DNA from: a virus
Virus record (IMG/VR): IMGVR_UViG_3300020200_002649
Span: 1-22,812 of that record
Length of the DNA stretch: 22,812 bases
Strand: one strand, 5' to 3'
Part shown: in pieces, positions 1,377-13,895 of the stretch
Numbering within the stretch: position 1 is the stretch's first letter
Layout: each line of letters begins with the position of its first letter
Translations under genes and position numbers: made by a program
The notes under the pieces: generated by a model
The model's database searches: none
What the model was told of the DNA's origin: nothing
The model's input: the letters and a program-made list of their open reading frames with translations, nothing else

Positions 1377-1379
1377 GGG

Positions 1380-1408
1380 TTGCAAGGGACCACATGTCGC
1401 CGTATCGT
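1380..1408 (+). promoter_or_regulatory. promoter TTGCAA-N17-TATCGT
   Basis: The -35 TTGCAA is at 1380-1385, the spacer is 17 nt, and the -10 TATCGT at 1403-1408 is preceded by G. It drives the operon starting at 1439. Unlike the promoters at 505-597, it yields a leader of roughly 24 nt with a full Shine-Dalgarno sequence. Confidence 0.7.
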
Positions 1409-1438
1409 GTAACCACGAACAACGATAAGGAGGCCACC

Positions 1439-1789: not shown

Positions 1790-2338
1790 GTGGGTTACTA
1801 CGTCAACGTCACCGAGATGTCGGTGCGCATCAAGTCCCAGGACGCCGACGACGCACTCGCCGCGCTGAGGAAGTTCAACGCCGAGTGCCCGCCCGCGATG
1901 AAGCGTGGCGGCACCGTGGGCGAGGACGGCAAGGAGGAGAAGTGGTTCTCCTGGATGAGGGCCGACTTCTCCGAGTACGAGTCGCTCGGCCAACTCCTCA
2001 ACGAGATGGGGTTCGAGCACATCGTCACGGACGGGTGGATATGCCTCACCAATTGGCACGGCGACAAGCAGGGCCAGGAGGACCTCCTGATGGAGGCCAT
2101 CGCCCGCTGGGTGGAGGACGGCAGCTTCGTTGAGTGGGTGGGCGAGGACTGCTACCGCTACCGCTGGGACTTCAAGGACTCCAAACTCCTCGTCAGGGAG
2201 GAGCGACGATCCTGGGGCGACGAGACGGTCACCCCGACCGAGAGGCGCCTCGCGTCCATTGGCGAGATGGATCGCTTCCAGAAGATGCTCCAGCAGCTGA
2301 AGTCCTACCCGCCGGCCGACGGCAAGGCGGACGCCTGA
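1790..2338 (+). CDS. 182-aa protein of unknown function
   Basis: The product starts MGYYVNVTEMSVRI from a GTG at 1790. It has two tryptophan-rich acidic stretches (EKWFSWMRADFSEYESLGQLLNEMGF and a WICLTNWHGDKQG segment) and a helical C-terminus. It resembles small alpha/beta phage proteins but no family can be named. Its TGA overlaps the ATG of an 18-codon microprotein gene (TGATG), so the two are almost certainly translated together. Confidence 0.75.
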   Translation: MGYYVNVTEMSVRIKSQDADDALAALRKFNAECPPAMKRGGTVGEDGKEEKWFSWMRADFSEYESLGQLLNEMGFEHIVTDGWICLTNWHGDKQGQEDLLMEAIARWVEDGSFVEWVGEDCYRYRWDFKDSKLLVREERRSWGDETVTPTERRLASIGEMDRFQKMLQQLKSYPPADGKADA

Positions 2339-2394
2339 TGTGGACGCTGTTGTTCTTCGCCTTCTGCACCTTCATGGTCTGGCTGTGGACATGA
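2338..2394 (+). CDS. 18-aa hydrophobic microprotein, copy 1
   Basis: The peptide MWTLLFFAFCTFMVWLWT is encoded from an ATG that overlaps the stop of the 182-aa gene as TGATG. It is almost entirely hydrophobic and aromatic, and just long enough to span or insert into a membrane. A second copy (MWELSFFAFCGFMTWLWT) occurs at 9229-9285 after an unrelated gene with the same overlap. Several codons differ only at synonymous positions, which points to selection on the peptide. Its 3' end contains the -35 of the next promoter. Function unknown. Confidence 0.7.
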   Translation: MWTLLFFAFCTFMVWLWT

Positions 2395-2413
2395 CGGTGG
2401 CGGAAGATAGGAT
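2386..2413 (+). promoter_or_regulatory. promoter TGGACA-N16-TAGGAT for the leaderless gene at 2420
   Basis: The -35 TGGACA (2386-2391) overlaps the end of the microprotein gene. The -10 TAGGAT (2408-2413) lies 6 nt before the ATG at 2420. The spacer holds a 12-nt match (2393-2404) to the 15-nt repeat GACGGTGGCGGATGA, as expected of a regulatory site. Confidence 0.55.
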
Positions 2414-2419
2414 GATCGG

Positions 2420-2656
2420 ATGAGCAAGCAACGAAACAAGGCGCGGACATTCTCCGCACAGGACAAGAGGGATCACCGCTCCGTGGTGGGCAGGGTCGGC
2501 AGCGTCTCGATCGACGACATATCCGTCGCCGTGAGGGTCGTCGCCGAGCGGTTCAGGTACGGCAGGCTGGACCTGCAGGTCAGGCCACTGGCCGGCAGGG
2601 GCTCGAGGTGGGTGGAGTTCCACAACGTGCAGCTGAGCAACAAGAGGAAGGGCTGA
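2420..2656 (+). CDS. 78-aa basic protein of unknown function, probably leaderless
   Basis: The product begins MSKQRNKARTFSAQDKRDH and is basic at both ends. A central SIDDISVAVRVVAERFRYGRL stretch could form a helix. No domain is recognised. The ATG follows a TAGGAT -10 by 6 nt and has no usable Shine-Dalgarno sequence. It is followed 2 nt later by a small membrane-protein gene. Confidence 0.65.
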   Translation: MSKQRNKARTFSAQDKRDHRSVVGRVGSVSIDDISVAVRVVAERFRYGRLDLQVRPLAGRGSRWVEFHNVQLSNKRKG

Positions 2657-2658
2657 CC

Positions 2659-2772
2659 ATGGAGTTCTGGATCAACGTGACCGCCGTGGTGGCGGTCTGC
2701 GCACTGGCGGCCGTGGTGGTCGTCGCGAGGGCCTGCGTGCGAATCTTCGCGCGCAAGGGAAACGACGCGTAG
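2659..2772 (+). CDS. 37-aa single-pass membrane protein
   Basis: The ATG at 2659 opens a 37-codon frame, MEFWINVTAVVAVCALAAVV continuing VVARACVRIFARKGNDA. Residues 5-24 form one convincing transmembrane segment followed by a positively charged tail, predicting the N-terminus outside and the C-terminus in the cytoplasm. It is the last gene of the operon, 36 nt before a strong terminator. Small single-pass proteins are common in phage accessory operons, but no role can be assigned. Confidence 0.65.
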   Translation: MEFWINVTAVVAVCALAAVVVVARACVRIFARKGNDA

Positions 2773-2808
2773 CCCCCCTTCGCCGCCGTTTTCCGCCCCG
2801 GGGTACCG

Positions 2809-2832
2809 AAAGGACCCCGGGGTCCTTTTTTT
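2809..2832 (+). terminator. rho-independent terminator
   Basis: A perfect inverted repeat, AAAGGACCCC followed by GGGGTCCTTT, runs directly into a T-run ending at 2832. It closes the rightward accessory operon. Confidence 0.85.
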
Positions 2833-3133
2833 GCACCGAAACGGCTTAACGGCCGTACCAGAACGCGACTCGCGGCGCGCTCCTGAGTCCAGCCGGGCCC
2901 CGCGCAGGTACCGAAACGGCCGTACCGGCGCCTCCTGCGTACCGTCCGCGGCGCTCCCGAGTCCAGCCCCTGCGGGCGTCGCGAGCCGTCGGGATCCGGC
3001 TCCCCACGCGTCGTTCCAGAGTCCAGCCCCCCCCTGCCCCCCCCCAGACGAACCCCCTCGGGGCTCCGGAGTGGCGATTGGGATACGGGACCGCAGAGCG
3101 TCGCGCGGGGCGACCGCTTTGACCAGGCCTTCC

Positions 3134-3148
3134 GACGGTGGCGGATGA
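3134..3148 (+). repeat. 15-nt repeat GACGGTGGCGGATGA, copy 3
   Basis: Exact match to the copies at 1352 and 3175, located in the non-coding region. Confidence 0.6.
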
Positions 3149-3174
3149 CGGGCCGGCGCGTGGCCGGGGGCCGC

Positions 3175-3189
3175 GACGGTGGCGGATGA
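3175..3189 (+). repeat. 15-nt repeat GACGGTGGCGGATGA, copy 4
   Basis: Exact match, 41 nt after the copy at 3134 in the same orientation. Confidence 0.6.
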
Positions 3190-3335
3190 GCGAGCCGCCG
3201 CCGCGGGAAGAAAGGAGAAAAGACCCGGGCGGCGACCCGCGGCTCGGACAAGGGGGGTTGAGACCGAGCGAAGCCGATTGTAGCCCACGGGACCCCCCTC
3301 CGCCCGCGATCCCCGAAAAAAGACCACCAAGGCCC

Positions 3336-3365
3336 TTGACATGGGCGGCGCTTTCGCGCTAGAAG
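3336..3365 (+). promoter_or_regulatory. sigma70-like promoter TTGACA-N18-TAGAAG
   Basis: A consensus TTGACA at 3336-3341 and TAGAAG at 3360-3365 are separated by 18 nt. Transcription would read through the hairpin at 3437-3472 and give the replication operon a leader of nearly 290 nt. The region from about 3366 to 3600 is less GC-rich than its surroundings and has no convincing gene. Confidence 0.5.
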
Positions 3366-3436
3366 AGTTCAAAAAAAGTCAGTCGTGATACCTGCCCTCC
3401 TTCGTGGACGACGGAGCCGAAGGGTCGGTTCGTTCG

Positions 3437-3472
3437 TCGTACTGCAACGAACAAAGGTTCGTTGCGATACGA
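3437..3472 (+). repeat. long inverted repeat in the leader of the replication operon
   Basis: Arms 3437-3452 and 3457-3472 can pair over 14 of 16 positions: an inner 9-bp stem GCAACGAAC/GTTCGTTGC with an AAAG tetraloop, then a two-base mismatch, then 5 bp. There is no T-run after it, so it is not an intrinsic terminator. It could be an RNA regulatory element or part of the origin. Confidence 0.6.
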
Positions 3473-3603
3473 CCTGGGTGACTCCGTGTGCGATCGGATG
3501 ACCTTAAGTACAACGAATGGTACGTATTCTCTACAGAGGGTCCGTGCGAGGCGTTCGCAGCAGTTCGGTGGGGCTCTGTGCAAAAACGGGCGCGCAATCG
3601 GGC

Positions 3604-3632
3604 TTGATTCGGCGGCCCGGGTGGCCTATGAT
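3604..3632 (+). promoter_or_regulatory. promoter TTGATT-N17-TATGAT of the replication operon
   Basis: The -35 TTGATT is at 3604-3609, the spacer is 17 nt and the -10 TATGAT is at 3627-3632. A GTG at 3639 lies 6 nt downstream and a Shine-Dalgarno-served GTG lies at 3657. Confidence 0.65.
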
Positions 3633-3656
3633 CTTCCCGTGCAGGGGGTGTTGTTC

Positions 3657-4037
3657 GTGACGGAGCCGAAACCCAGGAGGAACCACGCGCAGCGCAAGTA
3701 CGCGCGGCGCAGGAAGAGCAGCGAGTCGGCCGACCAGGACGACGTCAGGACCGTGTGGGAGGAGTGGGTGCGCGTGCACCGCGCCGGCCAGGAGAACAGG
3801 GTCAAGCTCACCGAGGAGCGCCGCGAGAGGATCTCGTGGGCCGTGGTCACCTACGGCGTCGCAACGTGCCTGGAGGCGATAGCCGGTTGCAAGCTCAGCC
3901 CCTTCCACCAGGGCGACAACGACCGCGGGCGCAAGTACGACGACGTCGAGCTCATACTGCGCGACGCGGCCAAGATCGAGAGGTTCTGCGAGATCGCCAG
4001 GGAGAACCGCTCGAGGCCCAAGGGCACCGACTTCTGA
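3657..4037 (+). CDS. replisome organiser-like protein (C-terminal type of phage replication initiators)
   Basis: This 126-aa product has a basic N-terminus (KPRRNHAQRKYARRRK). Residues from about 30 onward include KLTEERRERISWAV, a short helix pair, CKLSPFHQGDNDRGRKYDDVEL and an ILRDAAKIERF segment. The order 'KLt..RR..I......l..ai.g...s.fH.G.N..gk.Y.dlelilRd...ie.f' is characteristic of the C-terminal region of phage replisome organisers and DnaD-like initiators. The N-terminal winged-helix part seen in many family members is absent here. The GTG at 3657 follows the purine-rich AGGGGGTG (3643-3650); an alternative GTG at 3639 lies 6 nt after the -10 and would be leaderless. The stop overlaps the next ATG (TGATG). 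Role in replication initiation is inferred from the motif and the neighbour. Confidence 0.7.
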   Translation: MTEPKPRRNHAQRKYARRRKSSESADQDDVRTVWEEWVRVHRAGQENRVKLTEERRERISWAVVTYGVATCLEAIAGCKLSPFHQGDNDRGRKYDDVELILRDAAKIERFCEIARENRSRPKGTDF

Positions 4038-4510
4038 TGGACCAGGACTCCGCCGGCAGGGTGGTCGTGGCCTTCTACAACGCCTGGAACGAGCGCATCC
4101 CCAAGGGGACGGACTGGGACGAGCTGCTCTCCACCTGGGCCCGCTTCTTGTCCGACGTCAGCGTCAAGGAGGCCCGCCACGCATACCGCCGCCTCGTGGC
4201 GCAGGACTCCAACTGGCTCCCGAGGCCCGGCACCGTCCGCAGGATCGCGCTGTCGACCAGGGGCGACCAACCACCCAGGGAGTGGGAGGCGTGGGCGCAG
4301 CTCCGCAGGATCGCCGACGGGTCGCGCACGGGCGTCGGTTCCGTCGAGAGGATGCACCCCGTCGTCGCCGCGACGCTGGCCTCCCTCGGCGGGCGCGAGG
4401 CGCTCGAGCTGCACACCAACGGCGACCGCGAGCTCTTCTTCCGCGCGTACCGCGACAAGCTCGCCGACTGGGAGACGGAGAACTTCGGGGTTCCCTCGCA
4501 ATCGGACTGA
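4037..4510 (+). CDS. putative helicase loader / replication accessory protein
   Basis: This 157-aa product starts at the ATG overlapping the previous stop. Residues about 9-70 contain VAFYNAWNERIPKGTDWDELLSTW in register with a helical segment, then ARHAYRRLVAQDSNWLPRPG and TVRRIAL. The layout 'W...L.d.....a..a...l......w.P.pg.vr' resembles helicase loaders of the G39P type, in which short helices precede an 'FPPTVAEI'-like element. The sequence similarity is weak and the call is contextual: it is cotranscribed with an initiator-like gene beside a putative origin. The C-terminal half is helical and acidic with no motif. Confidence 0.5.
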   Translation: MDQDSAGRVVVAFYNAWNERIPKGTDWDELLSTWARFLSDVSVKEARHAYRRLVAQDSNWLPRPGTVRRIALSTRGDQPPREWEAWAQLRRIADGSRTGVGSVERMHPVVAATLASLGGREALELHTNGDRELFFRAYRDKLADWETENFGVPSQSD

Positions 4511-4529
4511 CCGTAGTAGCCTCGCGCGC

Positions 4530-4715
4530 GTGGCGATCGGGAGGGGTGGCAGACCGGCGAAGAGGGCCGACGGCGACTGGGCGACGGTGACCATCCGCGT
4601 GCCCGCCTGGTTCAAGAACCACCTCGTCGAGGTGTCCGACGGCTACGACATGTCGATCACCGACTACCTCAAGGCACTGGTGCTCAGGGATGCCCCGCCA
4701 ACCGACGCCGCCTAG
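4530..4715 (+). CDS. ribbon-helix-helix DNA-binding protein, probably leaderless
   Basis: This 61-aa protein begins at GTG 4530 with MAIGRGGRPAKRADG. It then has the beta strand ATVTIRVPAWFKNHL and two helices (EVSDGYDMSITDYLKALVL), the Arc/MetJ-type ribbon-helix-helix arrangement expected to dimerise and bind DNA. A TAGCCT -10-like hexamer ends 7 nt before the GTG, matching other leaderless starts in the window, though its -35 is poor. It overlaps the next gene, a divergent copy of the same fold, by 26 nt. Possible operon autoregulator. Confidence 0.7.
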   Translation: MAIGRGGRPAKRADGDWATVTIRVPAWFKNHLVEVSDGYDMSITDYLKALVLRDAPPTDAA

Positions 4716-5031
4716 GGGCGACGACGAGCTCCACCAGATCTGCGTGCGGATACCGGGCTGGCTGAAGGGCCGGGTGCTGGCCATCTGCGAGCGCGAGGAC
4801 ATCTCGCTCAACGCCCTCGTCTCCAACGCGATCAGGGAGGCCGAGAGGGCCGACAGGGGGCTGCCGTCCCCGCCGGAGGGCCGTCCCAACCCGACGATAG
4901 CCGAGGTGCTCGCCGCCTACGCAACCGGCGACAAGCTCACCAGGCCCTGCGGGAGGACCAGGTGCGATCAGAGGCTGGTGCGTCTGGACGGCCACGAGTT
5001 CTGCGACGAGTGCGGGATCCGCGTCGGATAA
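4690..5031 (+). CDS. ribbon-helix-helix protein with C-terminal zinc-ribbon-like Cys pairs
   Basis: The 113-aa product has an N-terminal ribbon-helix-helix unit (HQICVRIPGWLKGRVLAICE, then EDISLNALVSNAIREAE), clearly parallel to the RVPAWFK...DYLKALV of the upstream gene, which suggests tandem duplication. The C-terminus adds CGRTRC (C-x4-C) and, about 16 residues on, CDEC (C-x2-C), a four-cysteine set able to bind zinc. The ATG at 4690 lies inside the upstream gene in another frame. It is the last gene before a terminator. Likely DNA-binding regulator; target unknown. Confidence 0.7.
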   Translation: MPRQPTPPRGDDELHQICVRIPGWLKGRVLAICEREDISLNALVSNAIREAERADRGLPSPPEGRPNPTIAEVLAAYATGDKLTRPCGRTRCDQRLVRLDGHEFCDECGIRVG

Positions 5032-5039
5032 ATCGGGAC

Positions 5040-5063
5040 GCGCGCCCGGGCGTGTATTTTTTT
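5040..5063 (+). terminator. rho-independent terminator
   Basis: A six-pair stem (GCGCGC/GCGTGT, two G-U pairs) with a CCGG loop is followed by ATTTTTTT. It ends the replication/RHH operon 9 nt after the last stop. Confidence 0.75.
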
Positions 5064-5123
5064 CCGATAGTCTCGCATAAATCAGCTCGCGCACGCGTAG
5101 TTTCAATTTTTTTTTCGCCGCTT

Positions 5124-5150
5124 CTGGCCGGCTACTTACATTCCGGCCGG
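5124..5150. repeat. hairpin between convergent operons with loop containing GCTACTTACA
   Basis: CTGGCCGG (5124-5131) pairs with CCGGCCGG (5143-5150) around an 11-nt loop. A run of T precedes it on the plus strand, so it does not read as a terminator in either direction. The 10-mer GCTACTTACA (5131-5140) spans the end of the left arm and the loop, and recurs at 11011-11020 and, on the minus strand, at 21461-21452. Confidence 0.45.
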
Positions 5151-5232
5151 TTTCCTAGCAACTACAAAATCAACGATAACCGCCCGCACCGCCACCGCGG
5201 CGGCCCTTGCGCGTTTCCGGGCCGGGGCGGAT

Positions 5233-5598
5233 TCACTCGCCCCACATCTGGCTGAGCGTCGGCCTCGTCGGCTGGATCCTCCTGCGCTTCTGCTCGGCCG
5301 CCAGCTGCCTCGACGTCAGGCCCGCCCACACGCCGTGCATGTCGGCCGCCGGGAACTCCAGCGCGTAGTCCAGGCAGTGGTGCCTGACCGTGCAGTTCGC
5401 ACACATCTCGCGCGCCTCCTGGATGTAGCTGATGTCCTTGTGCCCCTTGGGGAACATCTTGTCGGTTTCCCCCTTGCACCTGGCCCTCGCCATCCACTCG
5501 GTTCTTGGCATATCGACGCCCGCCGGCGCAGACGCCGGTTTCGCTGGCGCGGTTCTCTTCGGCCGCTTGCCCTCCTCGGGCTCCCTCTTCCTCGGCAT
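5233..5598 (-). CDS. WhiB-family iron-sulfur transcriptional regulator
   Basis: The 121-aa product has the WhiB cysteine set: C41 in RARCKG, then C66, C69 and C75 in EMCANCTVRHHCLDYAL, which bind a [4Fe-4S] cluster in this family. The turn motif GVWAG (residues 89-93) and a basic tail (QLAAEQKRRR) follow, as in Wbl proteins that contact the primary sigma factor and DNA. About 35 Lys/Arg/Pro-rich residues precede the domain. The ATG at 5598 has GGGAGG upstream, favouring this start over Met30. It is the last gene of the leftward 8005-5233 operon. Phage WhiB proteins can alter host transcription; that role here is inference. Confidence 0.92.
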   Translation of the reverse strand: MPRKREPEEGKRPKRTAPAKPASAPAGVDMPRTEWMARARCKGETDKMFPKGHKDISYIQEAREMCANCTVRHHCLDYALEFPAADMHGVWAGLTSRQLAAEQKRRRIQPTRPTLSQMWGE

Positions 5599-5653
5599 GT
5601 CGCCTCCCTAGGGGCAAACCTACCGGCTGGCTACGGGTCAATTCCTGCTTTGG

Positions 5654-6301
5654 CTAGCGACTCTTTTTGGTGCGCCTAATTTTCTTGCCGCTACTTTCGT
5701 CGCGCTCCTTCGTCTGCTGCGTGGCGACGTGGAACGGCGCCCCCGTGCCCGGGTCGAACCTGCTTGCGACCGACAGCGCCTTCAGGACCGCGTTGCGGGC
5801 GGCCAGCTGGGACCTGCCCCACCCGGTCGCCGCCATCGCCCCCAGCGCGTAGCGGGATCCGCTGCCCACCGAGTAGAGGCCCGAGGCCTCGTTGATCCAG
5901 CTGTAGTCGCCGTCCACCCCGTAGATCCTGCCGTTCACCGCGGCTATCAGCTCGCTCTCGAACTCGCACTTCCCCGGGGACTCCTTGTGGATCGGGGCGT
6001 AGCCCGACTTCTCCATCACGTCCCTGAGGGCGGGGACGAAGTCGGTGGAGACGAACTTGTCGAGCGCCGAGCCGACGAGCGTCGGCCTGGGGACGGGCGG
6101 GGTGAAGTTGTGGGAGAGGATGTTGATCGCCCTCAGGTCGCCAGCCGCCCCGATGAGCCAGGGCCCGTTCTGGACGACCTTGCGCTGGCTGTCCGACAGC
6201 ACGTGGGTCTCGGAGTCCCCGTCGTCGGAGGTGTTGGAGATCCGGGAGTCCCACCCGATCACGCACCAGCCCTCCCCCTGCACGGCGATTATGGTGGTCA
6301 T
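5654..6301 (-). CDS. proteasome/HslV-like Ntn hydrolase
   Basis: The 215-aa product starts MTTIIAVQGEGWCVIGWDSR. Removal of Met1 would expose Thr2, the N-terminal nucleophile of proteasome beta subunits and HslV. Asp18, a lysine at about residue 41 (SQRKVV) and the glycine-rich VGSGSRYALGAM segment match the family's D17, K33 and 'GSGg.yA.gA' positions. Length is close to a mature beta subunit plus a basic tail (SGKKIRRTKKSR). The ATG follows GGGGAGGAA. No ATPase partner is encoded nearby, so any substrate delivery would use host factors or none. Peptidase activity is inferred. Confidence 0.8.
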   Translation of the reverse strand: MTTIIAVQGEGWCVIGWDSRISNTSDDGDSETHVLSDSQRKVVQNGPWLIGAAGDLRAINILSHNFTPPVPRPTLVGSALDKFVSTDFVPALRDVMEKSGYAPIHKESPGKCEFESELIAAVNGRIYGVDGDYSWINEASGLYSVGSGSRYALGAMAATGWGRSQLAARNAVLKALSVASRFDPGTGAPFHVATQQTKERDESSGKKIRRTKKSR

Positions 6302-6358
6302 CTGTTCCTCCCCGTGTCTGGTGCTGGTTGCTTCTTTGGGACGGTCTCACAAGGAGGG

Positions 6359-6402
6359 AAAAAAGGGGCGCTTGTCGGCCTAGTGGACAAGCACGCCACC
6401 CC
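6359..6402 (-). terminator. rho-independent terminator after the phosphoesterase gene
   Basis: On the minus strand GGCGTGCTTGTC pairs imperfectly with GACAAGCGCC around a 9-nt loop, followed by CC and six T (complement of 6364-6359). It lies just after the stop at 6413, so the Ntn hydrolase and WhiB genes may need read-through or their own promoter. Confidence 0.7.
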
Positions 6403-6412
6403 CTGGAGCCCC

Positions 6413-7639
6413 CTATGAGGCCTGCTTGAGGTTGGGTGCCTTGGCCTTGCGGGCGTCGTACTCCTTGCCCCTGAATATGGCGTAGCCGTCGTAGATCGTC
6501 ACCACCTCGTAGCTGAACAGGTTCTTGCCGGTTTCCTCGTAGGTGACGAGCCCGACGCCCTGTTGCCAGTCCTCGACGACGGTCTTCGGGCGCCCCCACG
6601 CGTCCACCCCGCCCTTGGTGGAAGGCACGGCGCCGTCTATGCGGGCGAGCGTGCCGGGGCTGGCCGCCATGATGGTGCGGGCCCCGTCCCAGTCGTGGCG
6701 GGTCCTGTAGGCCAGCTCGATCCTGTGGATGTGCCCGTATATCACCGAGAGCTTCTGCTCGTTGAGGTAGATGTGGGCCGTGGAGCCTTTCGAGCGGACC
6801 CTGTTGCCGTGGATGCAGGCCAGCTGCTTGTTGATCAGGTAGCGCCCGGCCGGGTAGCCGCTCTCGAACTCGACGCCGTACTCGTCCATCCTGCACAGCG
6901 ACGGGATGGACATGTCGGGCCAGGTCTGCGGGGTGTTGCCCTTGGTGATGCCGAAGGCGGCCTTGGCGTTGTCAAGGATGTAGTTGGTGAGCCTCTCCTC
7001 GTGGTTGCCGGCCAGCCACACGACCTTGGACTTGGGCGAGGCCGACCTGATCTCGGCGCACAGCGTGGTCGCCCTGTCGATCGACGCCTGCGTGGTCAGG
7101 GCGAACGCCGGGCTGAGCCTGTACTTGCCGAACTCGGGCAGGTCCAGGTTGTCGCCGAGCATCACCACCTGGTCGGGCTGGATGTCCCTGATCATCGCCA
7201 TCGCTATGGCGATAGCTCTCTCGTCGTGGGTGGGGATCAGCTGGCTGTCGACGTCGCGGAAGTACCCGATCTGTATATCGGGCACGATGACGGCCGTCTT
7301 CCTGCCCCTAGACGACCTCGCCTTGACCTCGGACTTTTGTATTTGCACGGAGGGTCCTGGCTTGGGGAGCTCCCACTTCGGCCCCTCCTCCCACGCCGGG
7401 GAGAACTGGATCGCCTGCAGGTCGTGCACCTGGAACTCGCCCTCGGCGTCCTTGGTGACCTGCTGGTAGATCGACACCTTCTTCACCGAGCCGATGTCGG
7501 CGAGGTCTATGCCCTTGGCCCTGATCATCTCCTCGATGGCGTTGAGGACCTTCTTGGAGCGGGCCCTGTCCTCGGAGCCCTCCTTGATCCGTCTCATGCC
7601 CTCGGCCAGCCTCTTCTGGTTCGGTTTGTCCCTTTTCAC
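6413..7639 (-). CDS. calcineurin-like metallophosphoesterase
   Basis: The 408-aa product carries the metallophosphoesterase motifs in order: VPDIQIG (D121, with Gln in place of the usual His of DxH), LGDNLD (D163), AGNHEER (N212-H213), IHGN (H277) and YGHIH (H303, H305). These ligate two metal ions in this superfamily. The first 110 residues are helical and linker-like and contain no recognised domain. The start is a GTG with GGGAGGAA upstream. It lies 12 nt after the HTH gene, a pairing seen in other actinophages, and is followed by its own terminator. The substrate (nucleotide, nucleic acid or protein) cannot be told. Confidence 0.88.
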   Translation of the reverse strand: MKRDKPNQKRLAEGMRRIKEGSEDRARSKKVLNAIEEMIRAKGIDLADIGSVKKVSIYQQVTKDAEGEFQVHDLQAIQFSPAWEEGPKWELPKPGPSVQIQKSEVKARSSRGRKTAVIVPDIQIGYFRDVDSQLIPTHDERAIAIAMAMIRDIQPDQVVMLGDNLDLPEFGKYRLSPAFALTTQASIDRATTLCAEIRSASPKSKVVWLAGNHEERLTNYILDNAKAAFGITKGNTPQTWPDMSIPSLCRMDEYGVEFESGYPAGRYLINKQLACIHGNRVRSKGSTAHIYLNEQKLSVIYGHIHRIELAYRTRHDWDGARTIMAASPGTLARIDGAVPSTKGGVDAWGRPKTVVEDWQQGVGLVTYEETGKNLFSYEVVTIYDGYAIFRGKEYDARKAKAPNLKQAS

Positions 7640-7651
7640 TGTTCCTCCCGT

Positions 7652-8005
7652 TCACTCGCCGCCGAACTTCTCGTCTAGTCCGCACTTGTCGTCGTGGGCG
7701 CAGGCGCACACCCTCTTGCGGTAGTCGTAAATCGTCTGGCGGGATATGCGGTGGCCCGACGCCCTCATCTCGCGTATTATGTCGCTGGTCGAGGTGAGCT
7801 CGTCGTTCAGCGCGTCGTAGAGGCACTGGCCCGTCTCGTGGTCCTGCTCCTCGAGCTTGTAGATGAGCTTCGCCATTGGGCATACGAGGTGCTGCGCATC
7901 CTCGTTCGAGTTCTTCCTTATCTTCCTCAGCCTCTCAGAGAGCACGTCGATTTTCCTGTCGATCGCGCGGCTTTGCTTTGTCGTCTTCTTGGTGTCCTTG
8001 GCCAC
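7652..8005 (-). CDS. putative HTH DNA-binding protein with C-terminal Cys/His cluster
   Basis: The 117-aa product has a basic, helical N-terminus (MAKDTKKTTKQSRAIDRK). Residues about 70-97 (SDIIREMRASGHRISRQT followed by IYDYRKR) look like a helix-turn-helix recognition unit. The end carries CACAHDDKC, a possible metal-binding cluster. The GTG start at 8005 has an excellent AAGGAGGAG Shine-Dalgarno sequence; an overlapping ATG is in the wrong frame. It is the first gene of the leftward operon. A small-terminase-like role is possible, but no family is recognised. Confidence 0.65.
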   Translation of the reverse strand: MAKDTKKTTKQSRAIDRKIDVLSERLRKIRKNSNEDAQHLVCPMAKLIYKLEEQDHETGQCLYDALNDELTSTSDIIREMRASGHRISRQTIYDYRKRVCACAHDDKCGLDEKFGGE

Positions 8006-8023
8006 ATCTCCTCCTTGCGAGCA

Positions 8024-8053
8024 ACCCTACATCACGGGGGTGCGTTCGCGCAA
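8024..8053 (-). promoter_or_regulatory. promoter TTGCGC-N18-TAGGGT for the leftward HTH-MPE operon
   Basis: On the minus strand the -35 is TTGCGC (8053-8048) and the -10 is TAGGGT (8029-8024) with an 18-nt spacer. The leader would be about 12 nt, containing AAGGAGGAG. It faces away from a TAGGAT hexamer (8054-8059) that serves the plus-strand gene. Confidence 0.5.
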
Positions 8054-8065
8054 TAGGATATGTCG

Positions 8066-8503
8066 ATGGCAACCGGGGAATACAGAAAGCACGCGATCGA
8101 CGACGCCCTCGCCAAGGCGCTGAGGGGTAGCGTCGGGGACGACGCCGAGGCGCGCAAGCTGGCGGAGACGGTGATGAAGCAGCTGGAGAAGCACAGGCTC
8201 ATCTACTACTCGTCCCCGGACGAGATAACCCTCCTCAGCGCGGCGGGTCGCCTGCTGGTGGCGCTGGCCGAGACGCCCGACGCGACGCAGAGGTCGCTGG
8301 CCGTGTTCCTCGGGGTCAGCGAGGGGGCCATCAGGAAGTCGGTGGACCAGCTCGTGGCGGCCGGGCTCGTGGCAAAGACAAAAGTCAAGAACAGGAACCT
8401 CCTCGTGATCGTCCCGGCCAAGGTCGCCGAGACCAGCGATATCAGGAGGCTCGGGGCGCTCCTGAGGGCGCTGGGAGCCGGGAAAGAGGACGACCTGTTC
8501 TGA
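8066..8503 (+). CDS. winged-helix (MarR-like) DNA-binding protein
   Basis: Counting from ATG 8066 the product has 145 residues and starts MATGEYRKHAIDD. Residues about 50-110 form a winged helix: LLSAAGRLLVALAETPDATQ, then RSLAVFLGVSEGAIRKSVDQ as the helix-turn-helix, then LVAAGLVAKTKVKNRNLLVI as the wing. The pattern resembles MarR/ArsR-type regulators. No Shine-Dalgarno sequence is seen. The TAGGAT (8054-8059) 6 nt before the second in-frame ATG favours 8066 over 8060, again as a leaderless message. Likely transcription regulator; target unknown. Confidence 0.75.
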   Translation: MATGEYRKHAIDDALAKALRGSVGDDAEARKLAETVMKQLEKHRLIYYSSPDEITLLSAAGRLLVALAETPDATQRSLAVFLGVSEGAIRKSVDQLVAAGLVAKTKVKNRNLLVIVPAKVAETSDIRRLGALLRALGAGKEDDLF

Positions 8504-8748
8504 TATCGGTGGGGATGCCCGTCTCTCGGTGACGCTCCCGTTTCGGCTCCCCAGGCACTACCGTTTCGTGGTTCCAAACGCAACGAACGCAAGTGAAAGG
8601 CTTCACGAGACGCCGAGGACGGGAAAGGCGCCGCCCCCGACGTCTCACCTATATCTGACGACATGAACGGACGAACGTTCGGTAAAAATGATGTGACTCA
8701 TGTCACGGCAATTTCTGCGTAGCCATTTGAAAAAACTTGCGATTGGGG
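8504..8748. other. intergenic region with several inverted repeats
   Basis: No convincing protein gene. Visible elements are the hairpin GTGAA-AGGC-TTCAC (8593-8606), GAGACG/CGTCTC arms (8607-8612 and 8641-8646), the palindrome CGAACGTTCG (8672-8681) and the operator-like GTGAC-TCAT-GTCAC (8693-8706). A 19-codon frame at 8663-8722 exists but has no independent support. Confidence 0.5.
8693..8706. promoter_or_regulatory. operator-like inverted repeat GTGAC-N4-GTCAC
   Basis: Five-base arms are separated by TCAT and lie 43 nt upstream of the -35 of the promoter at 8749. The symmetry suits a dimeric regulator such as the adjacent winged-helix protein. Inferred from position only. Confidence 0.4.
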
Positions 8749-8777
8749 TTGCAATACCACCCGTGGGTCCGTAGTGT
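8749..8777 (+). promoter_or_regulatory. promoter TTGCAA-N17-TAGTGT
   Basis: The -35 TTGCAA is at 8749-8754, the spacer is 17 nt, and the -10 TAGTGT at 8772-8777 is preceded by CCG. It has the same architecture as the promoters at 569, 1380 and 10975, and drives the operon starting at 8816. Confidence 0.75.
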
Positions 8778-8815
8778 GTCCCATAAGTTATCCAACTACC
8801 TACCAAGGAGAAGAC

Positions 8816-9229
8816 ATGAAAGACAAGCAGAAGAAGCCAGCCAGCGCGATGCAGGCGGCCCGCGCGTTCGCCGAAGCGAAGTCGTGCTACGACGAGGCGG
8901 TCAAGGCCAAGAAGCTCGCCGAGCAGAACTTCATCGAGGCGTGCGCCAAGGAGGGCGTGGAGTTCTCGGTCATCACCGACGACGCCGGCCTCTCGTCCAA
9001 GGTGTTCGTGCGCCGCACGGTCCGCACCAAGATCATCCTGGACAAGCTCCGCAAGCTCGTCAAGCCGGCGGTGCTCAAGAAGCTCGTCGTGGAGGAGGTC
9101 GACCAGAAGTTGGTCGCAAGCGCCCTCCTGATGAACGTGATCGACCAGGCGACGGTGGACCAGGCCAGCGAGGCCACAACCGTCGTGTCCGTGATGGTGA
9201 CCCAGCTCGAGACCAAGGTTGACGCCTGA
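8816..9229 (+). CDS. 137-aa helical protein of unknown function
   Basis: The ATG at 8816 follows AAGGAG with good spacing; a longer frame would start inside the promoter. The product begins MKDKQKKPASAMQAARAFAE. It has a charged coiled-coil-like helix (residues 10-45), a central VFVRRTVRTKIILDKLRKLV and an Ala/Val-rich end. No family is recognised. Its stop overlaps the 18-codon microprotein gene as TGATG, exactly as at 2338, and the 14 nt GACGCCTGATGTGG across the junction are identical at both sites. Confidence 0.75.
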   Translation: MKDKQKKPASAMQAARAFAEAKSCYDEAVKAKKLAEQNFIEACAKEGVEFSVITDDAGLSSKVFVRRTVRTKIILDKLRKLVKPAVLKKLVVEEVDQKLVASALLMNVIDQATVDQASEATTVVSVMVTQLETKVDA

Positions 9230-9285
9230 TGTGGGAGCTCTCCTTCTTCGCGTTCTGCGGTTTCATGACCTGGCTCTGGACCTGA
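9229..9285 (+). CDS. 18-aa hydrophobic microprotein, copy 2
   Basis: The peptide MWELSFFAFCGFMTWLWT matches the one at 2338-2394 in 14 of 18 residues. FFAFC, FM and WLWT are invariant, while codons for Leu, Ala and Thr differ at third positions. The ATG overlaps the stop of the 137-aa gene. It is probably membrane-inserted. The repeated presence of this tiny gene as the second cistron of TTGCAA-promoter operons argues that it is real. Function unknown. Confidence 0.7.
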   Translation: MWELSFFAFCGFMTWLWT

Positions 9286-9288
9286 GCG

Positions 9289-9690
9289 ATGACCGTTAGG
9301 ACCGAGACCGCCGAGTTCATGAGCCAGCACGCCGACGGCGTGGGGACGCTCGCCGACCTGCGCGCCGAGTGGGGCCCGATTGGTCAGCTGAACGAGTTCG
9401 AGCGCGGCGACGACGGCAATCCGACCGAGGCGACCCTCGACCGGTTCCGTCACATGGAGGGCGTGGACGCCAGGATGCGTTTCGTGCTCAACGAGCGCGG
9501 GGCCGTCTGGACCGTGTACGAGGAGCTCACCGACACCAACATCACCAGGAAGGGTCGCATTTACCTGCGCAACTCGTTGAAGTTGTACACCCACGGCGAC
9601 AAGACGCGGATCCTCGGATGGGTGGTCACCGCCAAGGGCTCGGGTTCGTTCTACAAGACCTACCTCGTCGCAGATGGGGAGACCCTATGA
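9289..9690 (+). CDS. 133-aa protein of unknown function
   Basis: The product begins MTVRTETAEFMSQHADGVGT 3 nt after the microprotein stop. The second half looks beta-rich (RFVLNERGAVWTVYEELTD and IYLRNSLKLYTHGDKTRILG, then WVVTAKGSGSFYKTYLVA), perhaps a small barrel. No family is recognised. Its stop overlaps the next ATG (ATGA at 9687). Confidence 0.7.
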   Translation: MTVRTETAEFMSQHADGVGTLADLRAEWGPIGQLNEFERGDDGNPTEATLDRFRHMEGVDARMRFVLNERGAVWTVYEELTDTNITRKGRIYLRNSLKLYTHGDKTRILGWVVTAKGSGSFYKTYLVADGETL

Positions 9691-9935
9691 CGACGAAGAT
9701 CGACGCCCGAAACGAGCTCGTCTCCAAGGCCTACGGGTGGATGGCGGGCAAGAAAATCGCCCGGGTCCGACCCCTGACGCGCCTTGAGTGCCACGAGATG
9801 GGGTGGACCTACGACCACCAGGCGTTCGCCGTCGTCGTGGAGTTCGAGGACGGAACGGCCTTCGTGCCGATGGCCGACCCCGAGGGCAACGGTTGTGGCT
9901 ACCTCGCCGAGGCGACCGTCCAGGAGGAGCGATGA
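9687..9935 (+). CDS. 82-aa protein of unknown function
   Basis: The ATG overlaps the previous stop (ATGA). The product MTTKIDARNELVSKAYGWMA continues through strands FAVVVEFEDGTAFVPMADP. It has a compact alpha/beta appearance with no recognised domain. The stop overlaps the next ATG at 9932, and AGGAGG within its last codons serves as that gene's Shine-Dalgarno sequence. Confidence 0.7.
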   Translation: MTTKIDARNELVSKAYGWMAGKKIARVRPLTRLECHEMGWTYDHQAFAVVVEFEDGTAFVPMADPEGNGCGYLAEATVQEER

Positions 9936-10231
9936 GTCAGATCATGAGGGTCGGCATGCCGCTCGAGAAGCAACGGGCAACGATCGTGGCCTTCACGGCG
10001 AGGGAGGACGGGTGGCTCGTCCTGTGCATCAGGTGGAACGACTTCATGCCGTACGTCGTGTGGGACGCCGCGCCCGCCAAGTGGGGCGAGTCGGGCGAGA
10101 AGTCCGCGACCTACCGCGGCGACGGAATCACATTCACGCGAGGCGACTACTGCCACACCATAGGCGCTGCGATGTACCAGTACGCTCACCGCGGGGGAGA
10201 CATCTCCGTGGTGAACGAAGGAGCAATATAA
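9932..10231 (+). CDS. 99-aa protein of unknown function
   Basis: It starts at ATG 9932 with CAGGAGGAGC upstream and encodes MSQIMRVGMPLEKQRATIVA, followed by strands WLVLCIRWNDFMPYVVW and a Gly-rich GDYCHTIGAAMYQYA segment. No family is recognised. It is tightly coupled to the upstream gene; the XRE gene follows 20 nt later. Confidence 0.7.
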   Translation: MSQIMRVGMPLEKQRATIVAFTAREDGWLVLCIRWNDFMPYVVWDAAPAKWGESGEKSATYRGDGITFTRGDYCHTIGAAMYQYAHRGGDISVVNEGAI

Positions 10232-10251: not shown

Positions 10252-10476
10252 ATGAAGAAAACCATCAGCATCGTCGAGAAAGAGGTCGCCAAGCGACTCC
10301 GCTCGGCCCGACAGAAGGCGGCCATGTCGCAGAACGCCCTCGCCGACGCCGCCGGCGTCGAGCGCAAGACGATCAACCGAATTGAGTGCGGACACTTCTC
10401 GCCCAGCCTCGAGACGCTCACCCGTCTCTGCTCGGCGCTGGGCACCAAGCTCTCGGCGTTCCTCAGGGGAATCTAA
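10252..10476 (+). CDS. XRE/Cro-family helix-turn-helix regulator
   Basis: The 74-aa protein has a complete Cro/CI-type HTH: LRSARQKAAMSQNALADAAG, VERKTINRIECG and HFSPSLETLTRLCSALG. The recognition elements SQNALADAAGVERKTINRIE match the family pattern 'sq..LA..aGv....i.riE.G...Ps..tl..ia.aLg'. GGAGG precedes the ATG. It is the last gene of the operon and could be a repressor of phage promoters. The 16-nt palindrome at 10539 is a candidate site but this is untested. Confidence 0.9.
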   Translation: MKKTISIVEKEVAKRLRSARQKAAMSQNALADAAGVERKTINRIECGHFSPSLETLTRLCSALGTKLSAFLRGI

Positions 10477-10557: not shown

Positions 10558-10634
10558 GTCCTCGTAGCTCAGCTGGATAGAGCGACGGCTTCCTAAGCCG
10601 CAGGTCGCAGGTTCGACTCCTGCCGAGGACGCCA
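10558..10634 (+). tRNA. tRNA-Arg (anticodon CCU)
   Basis: The acceptor stem GTCCTCG pairs with CGAGGAC (10624-10630). The D stem is GCTC/GAGC, the anticodon loop is TTCCTAA with CCT at its centre, and the T arm is GCAGG-TTCGACT-CCTGC. The discriminator G is followed by an encoded CCA (10632-10634). Position 27-43 of the anticodon stem is an A-C mismatch. It reads AGG, an arginine codon the window uses freely. The end lies 1 nt from the stop codon of the convergent thioredoxin gene. Confidence 0.95.
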
Positions 10635-13278: not shown

Positions 13279-13658
13279 GGGGCTGACAGGTTTCGACGAT
13301 CGGTCTGTCCGTGGAGGGTGCGACCCGAGTTGCTCAGACTCGCAAAACAGGGCAACCAAACAACTGCCAACAAGCAGTTCGCTCTCGCCGCCTAATCAAG
13401 CGGTAGGAGAGCACTCGTGAGCCGCAAGGTCACACGGGGCCGATCCACCGCAGCCCGGCAACAGAAGCGGGGACGACGACGGGAAAGACCGTTGACCTCG
13501 GGGAACGAAAGCCCGACGACATCCCGGAAAGACGGGACGCGGCCTAGGCGACTAGGCGGCCGACCCGTCGGCGACGCAGCGTCAGCGCCGAAACGGGAAC
13601 GGTCGTAGCAATCTCTTCGGTATCCGCTCGGACGGGGGTTCGATTCCCCCCAGCTCCA
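13279..13658 (+). ncRNA. ssrA: transfer-messenger RNA (tmRNA)
   Basis: The 5' end GGGGCTGACAGGTTTCGAC and the 3' end GGGGGTTCGATTCCCCCCAG followed by CTCCA form the tRNA-Ala-like domain (acceptor GGGGCTG with CAGCTCC, one G-U pair). The tag reading frame runs from GCA at 13342 to TAA at 13393-13395 and encodes AKQGNQTTANKQFALAA, ending in the FALAA degradation signal typical of Actinobacteria. The rest is pseudoknot-like GC-rich sequence. CCA is not encoded (CTA follows). The gene is about 380 nt and complete. It would rescue stalled ribosomes and tag products for ClpXP using host SmpB; no SmpB is in the window. The 3' end directly abuts the stop codon of the convergent gene at 13659. Confidence 0.96.
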
Positions 13659-13895
13659 CTATTCGTCTTCGTGCATTTCGTCGTAGTAAACCATCGCCTG
13701 TCTCAGCCAATCGTGAGCCATTCCGAGGGCGTGAAGAAACTCGTCCTCTTCTCCGCCGTTGGGGTGTAGTGGCGAATACAAAGCGAACTCCGACGCGAAC
13801 CAGTGATGTTCGCAGACGATGTTGTTGATCTTCTTTTCCGCTTCGTCCAATTCCGATTTGACGAAAGCCGGATCAAGGCTGTTCTCGTCCTTCAC
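13659..13895 (-). CDS. 78-aa acidic protein of unknown function
   Basis: The product MKDENSLDPAFVKSELDEAE is very acidic and helical, with a histidine/aromatic patch (CEHHWFASEFALYSPLHP) and a C-terminal YYDEMHEDE. No family is recognised. The start is probably the GTG at 13895, although no Shine-Dalgarno sequence is visible there. The stop codon (complement of CTA 13659-13661) begins at the base after the tmRNA 3' end. It is downstream of, and probably cotranscribed with, the gene at 14185. Confidence 0.6.
   Translation of the reverse strand: MKDENSLDPAFVKSELDEAEKKINNIVCEHHWFASEFALYSPLHPNGGEEDEFLHALGMAHDWLRQAMVYYDEMHEDE

Follow-up and report, generated by a model that had tools for sequence, protein, structure and literature searches.

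Paired candidate membrane peptides of 15 to 21 residues in a group of uncultured phages

The 22.8-kb virus record IMGVR_UViG_3300020200_002649, the whole of which (22,812 nucleotides, nt) is called the window here, contains two 18-codon open reading frames (ORFs), peptides A and B, which resemble each other and have close homologs in related phage contigs. Several described systems come near to them. The leader peptides PheL, TrpL and TnaC are aromatic-rich, with many Phe and Trp residues; phage membrane proteins of the exclusion or takeover type, such as T4 Imm and the P22 and lambda Sie proteins, are several times longer and are encoded in single copy. Small phage ORFs of less than 100 amino acids (aa), often left unannotated, form a broad class (review PMC11323111), and the Ibs toxins are depolarising peptides of 19 aa, one of which, IbsC, stays toxic at 15 aa with ten hydrophobic residues (PMC8309996). 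The peptides described here have 15–21 aa, a grand average of hydropathy of 1.0–2.95, at most one charged residue and no Lys or Arg. The new result is that their copies within phages diverge in a coordinated, lineage-specific way.

Peptides A and B and their closest homologs

The two ORFs are as follows (handles beginning with G or L denote contigs):

2338..2394, plus strand, peptide A, MWTLLFFAFCTFMVWLWT; orthologs in L226 (at 848) and G004 (at 41317)
9229..9285, plus strand, peptide B, MWELSFFAFCGFMTWLWT; orthologs in G001 (at 6356), G004 (at 48278) and G006 (at 114217, MYPVFFIGFCGFVVWLWS)

Each ORF starts with ATG, runs over 18 codons and ends with TGA, and each start shares one nucleotide with the TGA of the gene upstream (TGATG). 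Peptides A and B are identical at 14 of 18 aa and 44 of 57 nt, and the 15 nt located 5' of both ORFs can be aligned as well. Scored with BLOSUM62, the A/B peptides reach 111–113 and the best other 18-aa stretch in the six frames of the window reaches 19, so that the resemblance is not due to chance. Different codons are used at four of the nine identical residues that allow a synonymous choice. An earlier reading of the window (the sequence-only reading) had reported the two ORFs with their coordinates and identity, the overlap with the upstream stop and the use of different synonymous codons, and all of these were found as described.

Searches by protein and by pattern located these peptides in a few IMG/VR contigs. 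At locus A, MWTLLFFAFCTFMVWLWT is present in the window and L226, and MWTLQFFAFCAFVVWLWS in G002–G004; at locus B, the window has MWELSFFAFCGFMTWLWT, G001 has MWELSFFTFCGLMVWLWS, G002–G004 have MQPILFFAFCGFIVWLWS and G006 has MYPVFFIGFCGFVVWLWS; and a third copy, C (MEILTFFTFCVFVVWLWS), lies behind a 91-aa gene in G004 and ends with TAG, the stop codon of the other copies being TGA. As far as compared, G002–G004 are copies of one phage, and L226 and G001, whose shared genes each match the window with the same identity in both contigs, are probably one phage too. L226 (VGRJ01000183.1), a 3.9-kb phage contig that is a close relative of the window, sits in a metagenome-assembled genome labeled 'Deltaproteobacteria', probably by mis-binning.

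Within the window clade all homologs have exactly 18 codons and a TGATG start and carry no frameshift, and apart from copy C they lie at the same two loci. A missing peptide in related phages and frameshifts among the copies, which the sequence-only reading had named as refuting it, were thus not seen within the clade. These same-length, unshifted homologs back the earlier proposal that the peptides are conserved genes under selection at the protein level, and the membrane peptides proposed at the same time are very probably what the ORFs encode, the suggested exclusion, depolarising and lysis roles being separate from this outcome. Residues F6, F9, C10, W15, L16 and W17 are invariant across the 18-residue clade, whose conserved pattern is FC-x-[FL]-x-[VT]-WLW-[ST]; amino acid conservation is strongest in the C-terminal half, and aromatic residues occupy both ends of the peptide. 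A position-specific scoring matrix gave at least 72 for true members and at most 17 for everything else in the contigs. A TBLASTN search with a 23-aa query found no homolog in 50,697 cultured-phage records, and a strict DNA pattern had zero matches in viral contigs. Relaxed patterns yielded, among the matches listed, relatives and chance matches with a score gap from 75 to 50, and the scan of genome contigs gave one true match, L226.

Peptide sets of distant relatives and divergence of the copies

More distant relatives do not have the window sequence; they have their own pair or trio of hydrophobic, Lys/Arg-free peptides of 15–21 residues. The places are again locus A, directly 5' of the 78-aa gene, and the B operon, and in nearly every case the start shares 1 nt with the upstream stop as it does in the window. 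These twin peptides of unrelated sequence, with copies diverging together, had been missed by the sequence-only reading. G005 (109 kb), whose neighbor genes are mostly 50–90% identical to those of the window, has MDLMTWFVFLTALGVVWFS just 5' of the homolog of gene 2420–2656 and MDWVIFLFALATIWFA behind the helix-turn-helix (HTH) gene that closes operon B, both with TAATG, and no peptide behind the 137-aa gene. G018 has MTDVPAFLGLVFVIMLFACVG at locus A (ATGA overlap) and MEWVALAFVVGLFCCVG behind the HTH gene. In the clade of G007, G008, G009 and G017 three places are occupied: locus A, behind an HTH homolog, by MQA(L/A)VVLLILWVLFL; the B operon by MAAVVAILIVFCVFS; and a third place by MYA(I/V)VVLLIIFCVFN, with a TTG start and no overlap (in G009 this copy begins 1 nt past TAG, in a different frame). 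The G005 and G018 sequence types are represented by one phage each, and no recognizable peptide was found in G012–G016. G010 (18229, minus strand) and G011 (8230, minus strand) encode a charged peptide of 23–28 aa, IATGTI..FL.VIY.A.K.L.D, with a 1-nt overlap with the stop of a WhiB-like gene; it was left out of the peptide count.

Compared within genomes, A and B are significantly similar in the window and G018 (shuffle p = 0.0002 in both), G005 (0.0006) and G009 (0.003), as is the third G009 copy to the other two (0.0002–0.0004). None of 24 peptide comparisons across clades was significant (all p > 0.07), on which ground one homologous family spanning the clades was rejected; the neighboring proteins remain recognizable. 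The pairing as found has the top sum (rank 1 of 24 permutations). Kinship between clades is thus a matter of position, length, composition and overlap only. Orthologous A copies in the window clade (14 of 18 residues identical) are no closer than the twins; at this short range, then, nothing points to gene conversion. The co-divergence would fit either repeated copying of the peptides between operons or co-selection.

These contigs contain 21 tiny ORFs (12–26 aa) that share 1 nt with the stop of a called gene, and 16 of them combine hydrophobicity with no more than one charge, compared with 50 of 1750 (2.9%) hydrophobic in the control set of out-of-frame tiny ORFs inside genes. Some of the contigs duplicate others; in all they stand for about seven different phages, about 15 different loci and four types of sequence. 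The overlap-ORF counts, based on gene calls by our own script, are therefore not used for a formal probability. None of ten tiny ORFs (12–30 aa, 1- or 4-nt overlap) in seven cultured actinophages is hydrophobic, and a general actinophage feature was rejected for this reason.

The twins of G018 and G009 separate the protein level from the DNA level. Their nucleotide similarity is near chance (z 1.0–4.6) and their identical residues have different codons in 5/8, 4/5, 4/8 and 4/7 cases; peptides that match via different codons, in DNA that is near chance, point to selection acting on the peptide. In a neutral simulation run to the divergence seen between the copies, an 18-codon, Lys/Arg-free hydrophobic ORF was retained at locus A in 5.6% of trials (window to G004), and at locus B in 1.8% (window to G004) and 0.8% (window to G006). 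Codon choice is gene-like in G000, G004, G005 and G018, where 0.6–3.2% of out-of-frame sequence windows score as high. The ratio of non-synonymous to synonymous substitution rates (dN/dS) is 0.20 at locus A, window versus G004. With about ten synonymous sites per copy, pairwise dN/dS is weak alone; its values being mixed as well, it was rejected as proof of coding and replaced by the twin codon comparison, the neutral simulation and codon preference. Together these three support translation of the predicted ORFs.

Operon setting and genome context

The features around the two peptides are listed below.

1378..1409, plus strand, promoter-like element of operon A, GGTTGCAA-N17-TATCGTG; the pattern recurs in G001, G004, G005, G006 and G018
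1790..2338, plus strand, 182-aa gene, phrog_38862 (unknown function); its TGA overlaps the start of peptide A
2394..2407, plus strand, conserved DNA motif ACGGTGGMGGAWGA; begins on the final base of the peptide A stop codon
2420..2656, plus strand, 78-aa gene; comes after the locus A peptide in each clade having one
8747..8778, plus strand, promoter-like element of operon B, GGTTGCAA-N17-TAGTGTG; from the pattern scan
8816..9229, plus strand, 137-aa gene without family match; its TGA overlaps the start of peptide B
10252..10476, plus strand, HTH regulator gene, last of operon B; alternative peptide neighbor in relatives

Operon A consists of the promoter-like element, a gene at about 1394/1439–1783, gene 1790–2338, peptide A and genes 2420–2656 and 2659–2772; operon B consists of its promoter-like element, gene 8816–9229, peptide B, genes 9289–9690, 9687–9935 and 9932–10231, and the HTH gene. 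TTGCAA-N17-TANYNT has four matches in the window and is also found in five related contigs (G001, G004, G005, G006 and G018), the reversed pattern used as a control having zero; the elements precede both peptide operons, which agrees with the TTGCAA promoters reported in the sequence-only reading. Gene content and promoters suggest early expression of both operons.

The peptides always lie behind at least one operon gene, are the final ORF in several clades and have as neighbors small genes of unknown product and the HTH regulator, whose homolog is trailed by a tiny peptide in G005, G018 and, at locus A, the G007 clade. Most neighbor genes had no match in Pfam and PHROGs. As the peptide also moves relative to its neighbors, they are a poor guide to its function, and attempts to deduce function from them were dropped. 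Arthrobacter Tankvirus homologs of the 182-aa gene were considered as peptide carriers and rejected, no peptide following them. A second small membrane-type protein of 37 aa, MEFWINVTAVVAVCALAAVVVVARACVRIFARKGNDA, is encoded last in operon A (2659–2772, plus strand) and is kept in L226 and G004.

The window-clade twins share GACGCCTG ahead of the ATG, and the unrelated proteins upstream of A and B often finish on the same Asp-Ala-stop codons (GACGCCTGATG). These shared ends suggest that a module beginning a few bases 5' of the ATG has been copied between operons.

A dispersed DNA motif, GACGGTGGNGGAWGA, occurs on the plus strand of the window at 1353, 2394, 3135 and 3176, mostly in intergenic positions, and also in G001, L226, G004, G005, G007–G013, G017 and G018, which include contigs only 55–58% related; several copies stand about 20–35 nt 5' of a TTGCA promoter-like element, and the copy at 2394 starts on the stop codon of peptide A. 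The HK97-type major capsid protein of the window is nearest to those of actinophages (Brevibacterium phage Cantare, 46%; Gordonia phage GMA6, 44%), the window appears to carry WhiB-like genes, and the host is presumably actinobacterial. The origin is presumably a lake, read as Lake Tanganyika from the title 'K_DeepCast_35m'. The window further encodes a transfer-messenger RNA (13279–13659, plus strand; tag ANKQFALAA) and a tRNA-Arg (CCT, 10558–10634). A 215-aa protein (5654–6301, minus strand) that begins MTTIIAVQGEGWCVIGWDSRIS resembles an N-terminal-nucleophile hydrolase of the proteasome-beta/HslV type; Pfam gave no match for it, with a query stretch that included the stop codon.

Interpretation and comparison with known systems

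Peptides A and B are highly likely to be real translated genes, and they are likely to be membrane peptides. The best explanation as a whole, which we put forward tentatively, is that they are translationally coupled, membrane-inserting microproteins encoded in early-type operons of an actinophage-like virus. A ribosome finishing the upstream gene could restart on the peptide through the 1-nt stop/start overlap. Each phage has two or three copies in separate operons, with phage-type promoters in the window clade, and the encoded peptides are uncharged or have one acidic residue near the N-terminus, and no Lys or Arg. They would be made soon after infection, at a level that follows that of the gene upstream. 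The ribosome tunnel accommodates about 30 residues. Because the peptides are shorter than this, release would precede contact with any targeting factor, and insertion into the inner membrane would follow it, presumably as a single short helix with terminal aromatics. There they would disturb the membrane itself or a protein in it; the most plausible outcome is a block to superinfection or a drop in membrane potential, as with Ibs. Their shared lineage-specific sequence suggests a common target for the two copies, or oligomers that contain both.

As a function, exclusion or depolarisation of the membrane is the leading guess, to which we give limited credence. A lysis role is less likely because the operons are small, of early type and away from any recognized lysis gene; a holin or lysis cassette protein (looked for as a gene beside an endolysin gene, with more than 60 aa and a charged tail) was rejected for peptides of 15–21 aa that have no Lys or Arg and whose neighbors are an HTH regulator and small genes of unknown product. 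It is doubtful that the peptides form a self-specific system, in which the copies must fit one another or a single target particular to the phage and the type is swapped wholesale between lineages; if true, such a system would behave as a determinant of exclusion or recognition should, and would be made up of genes among the shortest known.

Several observations weigh against the coupled membrane microproteins proposed here. Codon choice is uninformative in G006 and G009 (0.32 for the G007/G009 clade); dN/dS, suggested as a check in the sequence-only reading, is near 1 in several B comparisons; Shine-Dalgarno-like sequences are clear ahead of only some copies; the locus A peptide of the G007/G009 clade extends into the stem of a terminator-like hairpin; and contigs at 56–58% identity (G010–G016) have no clear twin. 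A regulator of a host enzyme would also fit equally well as exclusion.

Small proteins of the CydX, KdpF and MgtR type tune the activity of membrane proteins, and a regulator of one membrane protein, itself only a possibility, would fit nearly as well as exclusion. Such a peptide would bind one particular membrane protein of the host or the phage, and the lineage sequences would track hosts or targets; we regard this as conceivable rather than likely. The conservation of the 18-residue clade exceeds mere hydrophobicity, and joint replacement of both copies would be expected with one changing partner; however, no visibly co-varying partner gene was found, and the upstream genes vary by copy and clade. 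Conservation that peaks beside the stop codon in each clade, together with the aromatic-rich composition, would also suit arrest or leader peptides, whose C-terminus stalls termination in the ribosome tunnel and controls downstream genes in cis. This is improbable for peptides that are placed inside or at the end of operons, never at the head, and are followed by varying genes or by no close gene (G005 and G018 at locus B, G009 at locus A), with the hairpin at G009 locus A running counter to it too; a stall in cis would, moreover, leave the matched sequences at two loci unexplained.

A repeated DNA or RNA element (an operator, a recombination site or an antisense target) that is open by chance would account for the window-clade twins, which are alike in nucleotides (z 14–20) and in the stretch before the ATG, and for the conserved DNA motif that abuts peptide A. 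The twins of G018 and G009, matching as peptides and not as DNA, already largely refute it, and with the TAG stop of copy C, the gene-like codon choice and no Rfam family at the peptide loci it is very improbable. Hardly any credence is left for a -1 frameshift by which the upstream protein would gain the hydrophobic stretch as an optional anchor in the membrane: the 1-nt and 4-nt overlaps all give the same -1 frame and the upstream frame at window locus A is open (ORF 2134–2394), but no common slippery heptamer was seen on inspection ahead of the stops, in-frame stops lie 2–3 codons 5' of B in the window and G001, and the third G009 copy is in the other frame.

The results suggest an unrecognized and unannotated class of membrane peptides in a group of uncultured phages. 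Most gene callers have a length cut-off above 15–21 codons, and to our knowledge few phage genes this short are recognizable from comparative evidence alone; the present ones are recognizable through a constant position, the stop/start overlap, their codon usage and copies that diverge in step. The corresponding search rule for other phages is a hydrophobic, Lys/Arg-free ORF with a 1-nt overlap, repeated within the genome. Should the peptides prove to be a device by which each lineage achieves recognition or exclusion, they would offer a minimal system for how a single short helix gains specificity.

No described family matched the phage peptides in this comparison. With 15–21 aa they fall below the length at which most surveys of small phage ORFs start. 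PheL, TrpL and TnaC are similar in length and in Phe/Trp richness; unlike them, the phage peptides lie off the operon head, have no attenuator or biosynthetic gene 3' and occur in two or three matched copies. Proteins of the T4 Imm and P22/lambda Sie type, compared by description, share the membrane-seeking character and the early-type context. The Escherichia coli type I toxins Ibs (IbsA–E) and ShoB are very hydrophobic single helices of 18–26 aa, a form that the equally hydrophobic phage peptides presumably share; Ibs is multicopy and IbsC has no C-terminal positive charge, as in the phage peptides, which reach the minimum size and hydrophobicity of IbsC in a likeness of composition only. 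Ibs and ShoB are made from a separate transcript under an antisense RNA. An undescribed antisense RNA may also act at the phage loci, where no Rfam family matched, but the peptides described here are phage-borne and embedded in operons with a start that overlaps the upstream stop, and their copies co-diverge between clades.

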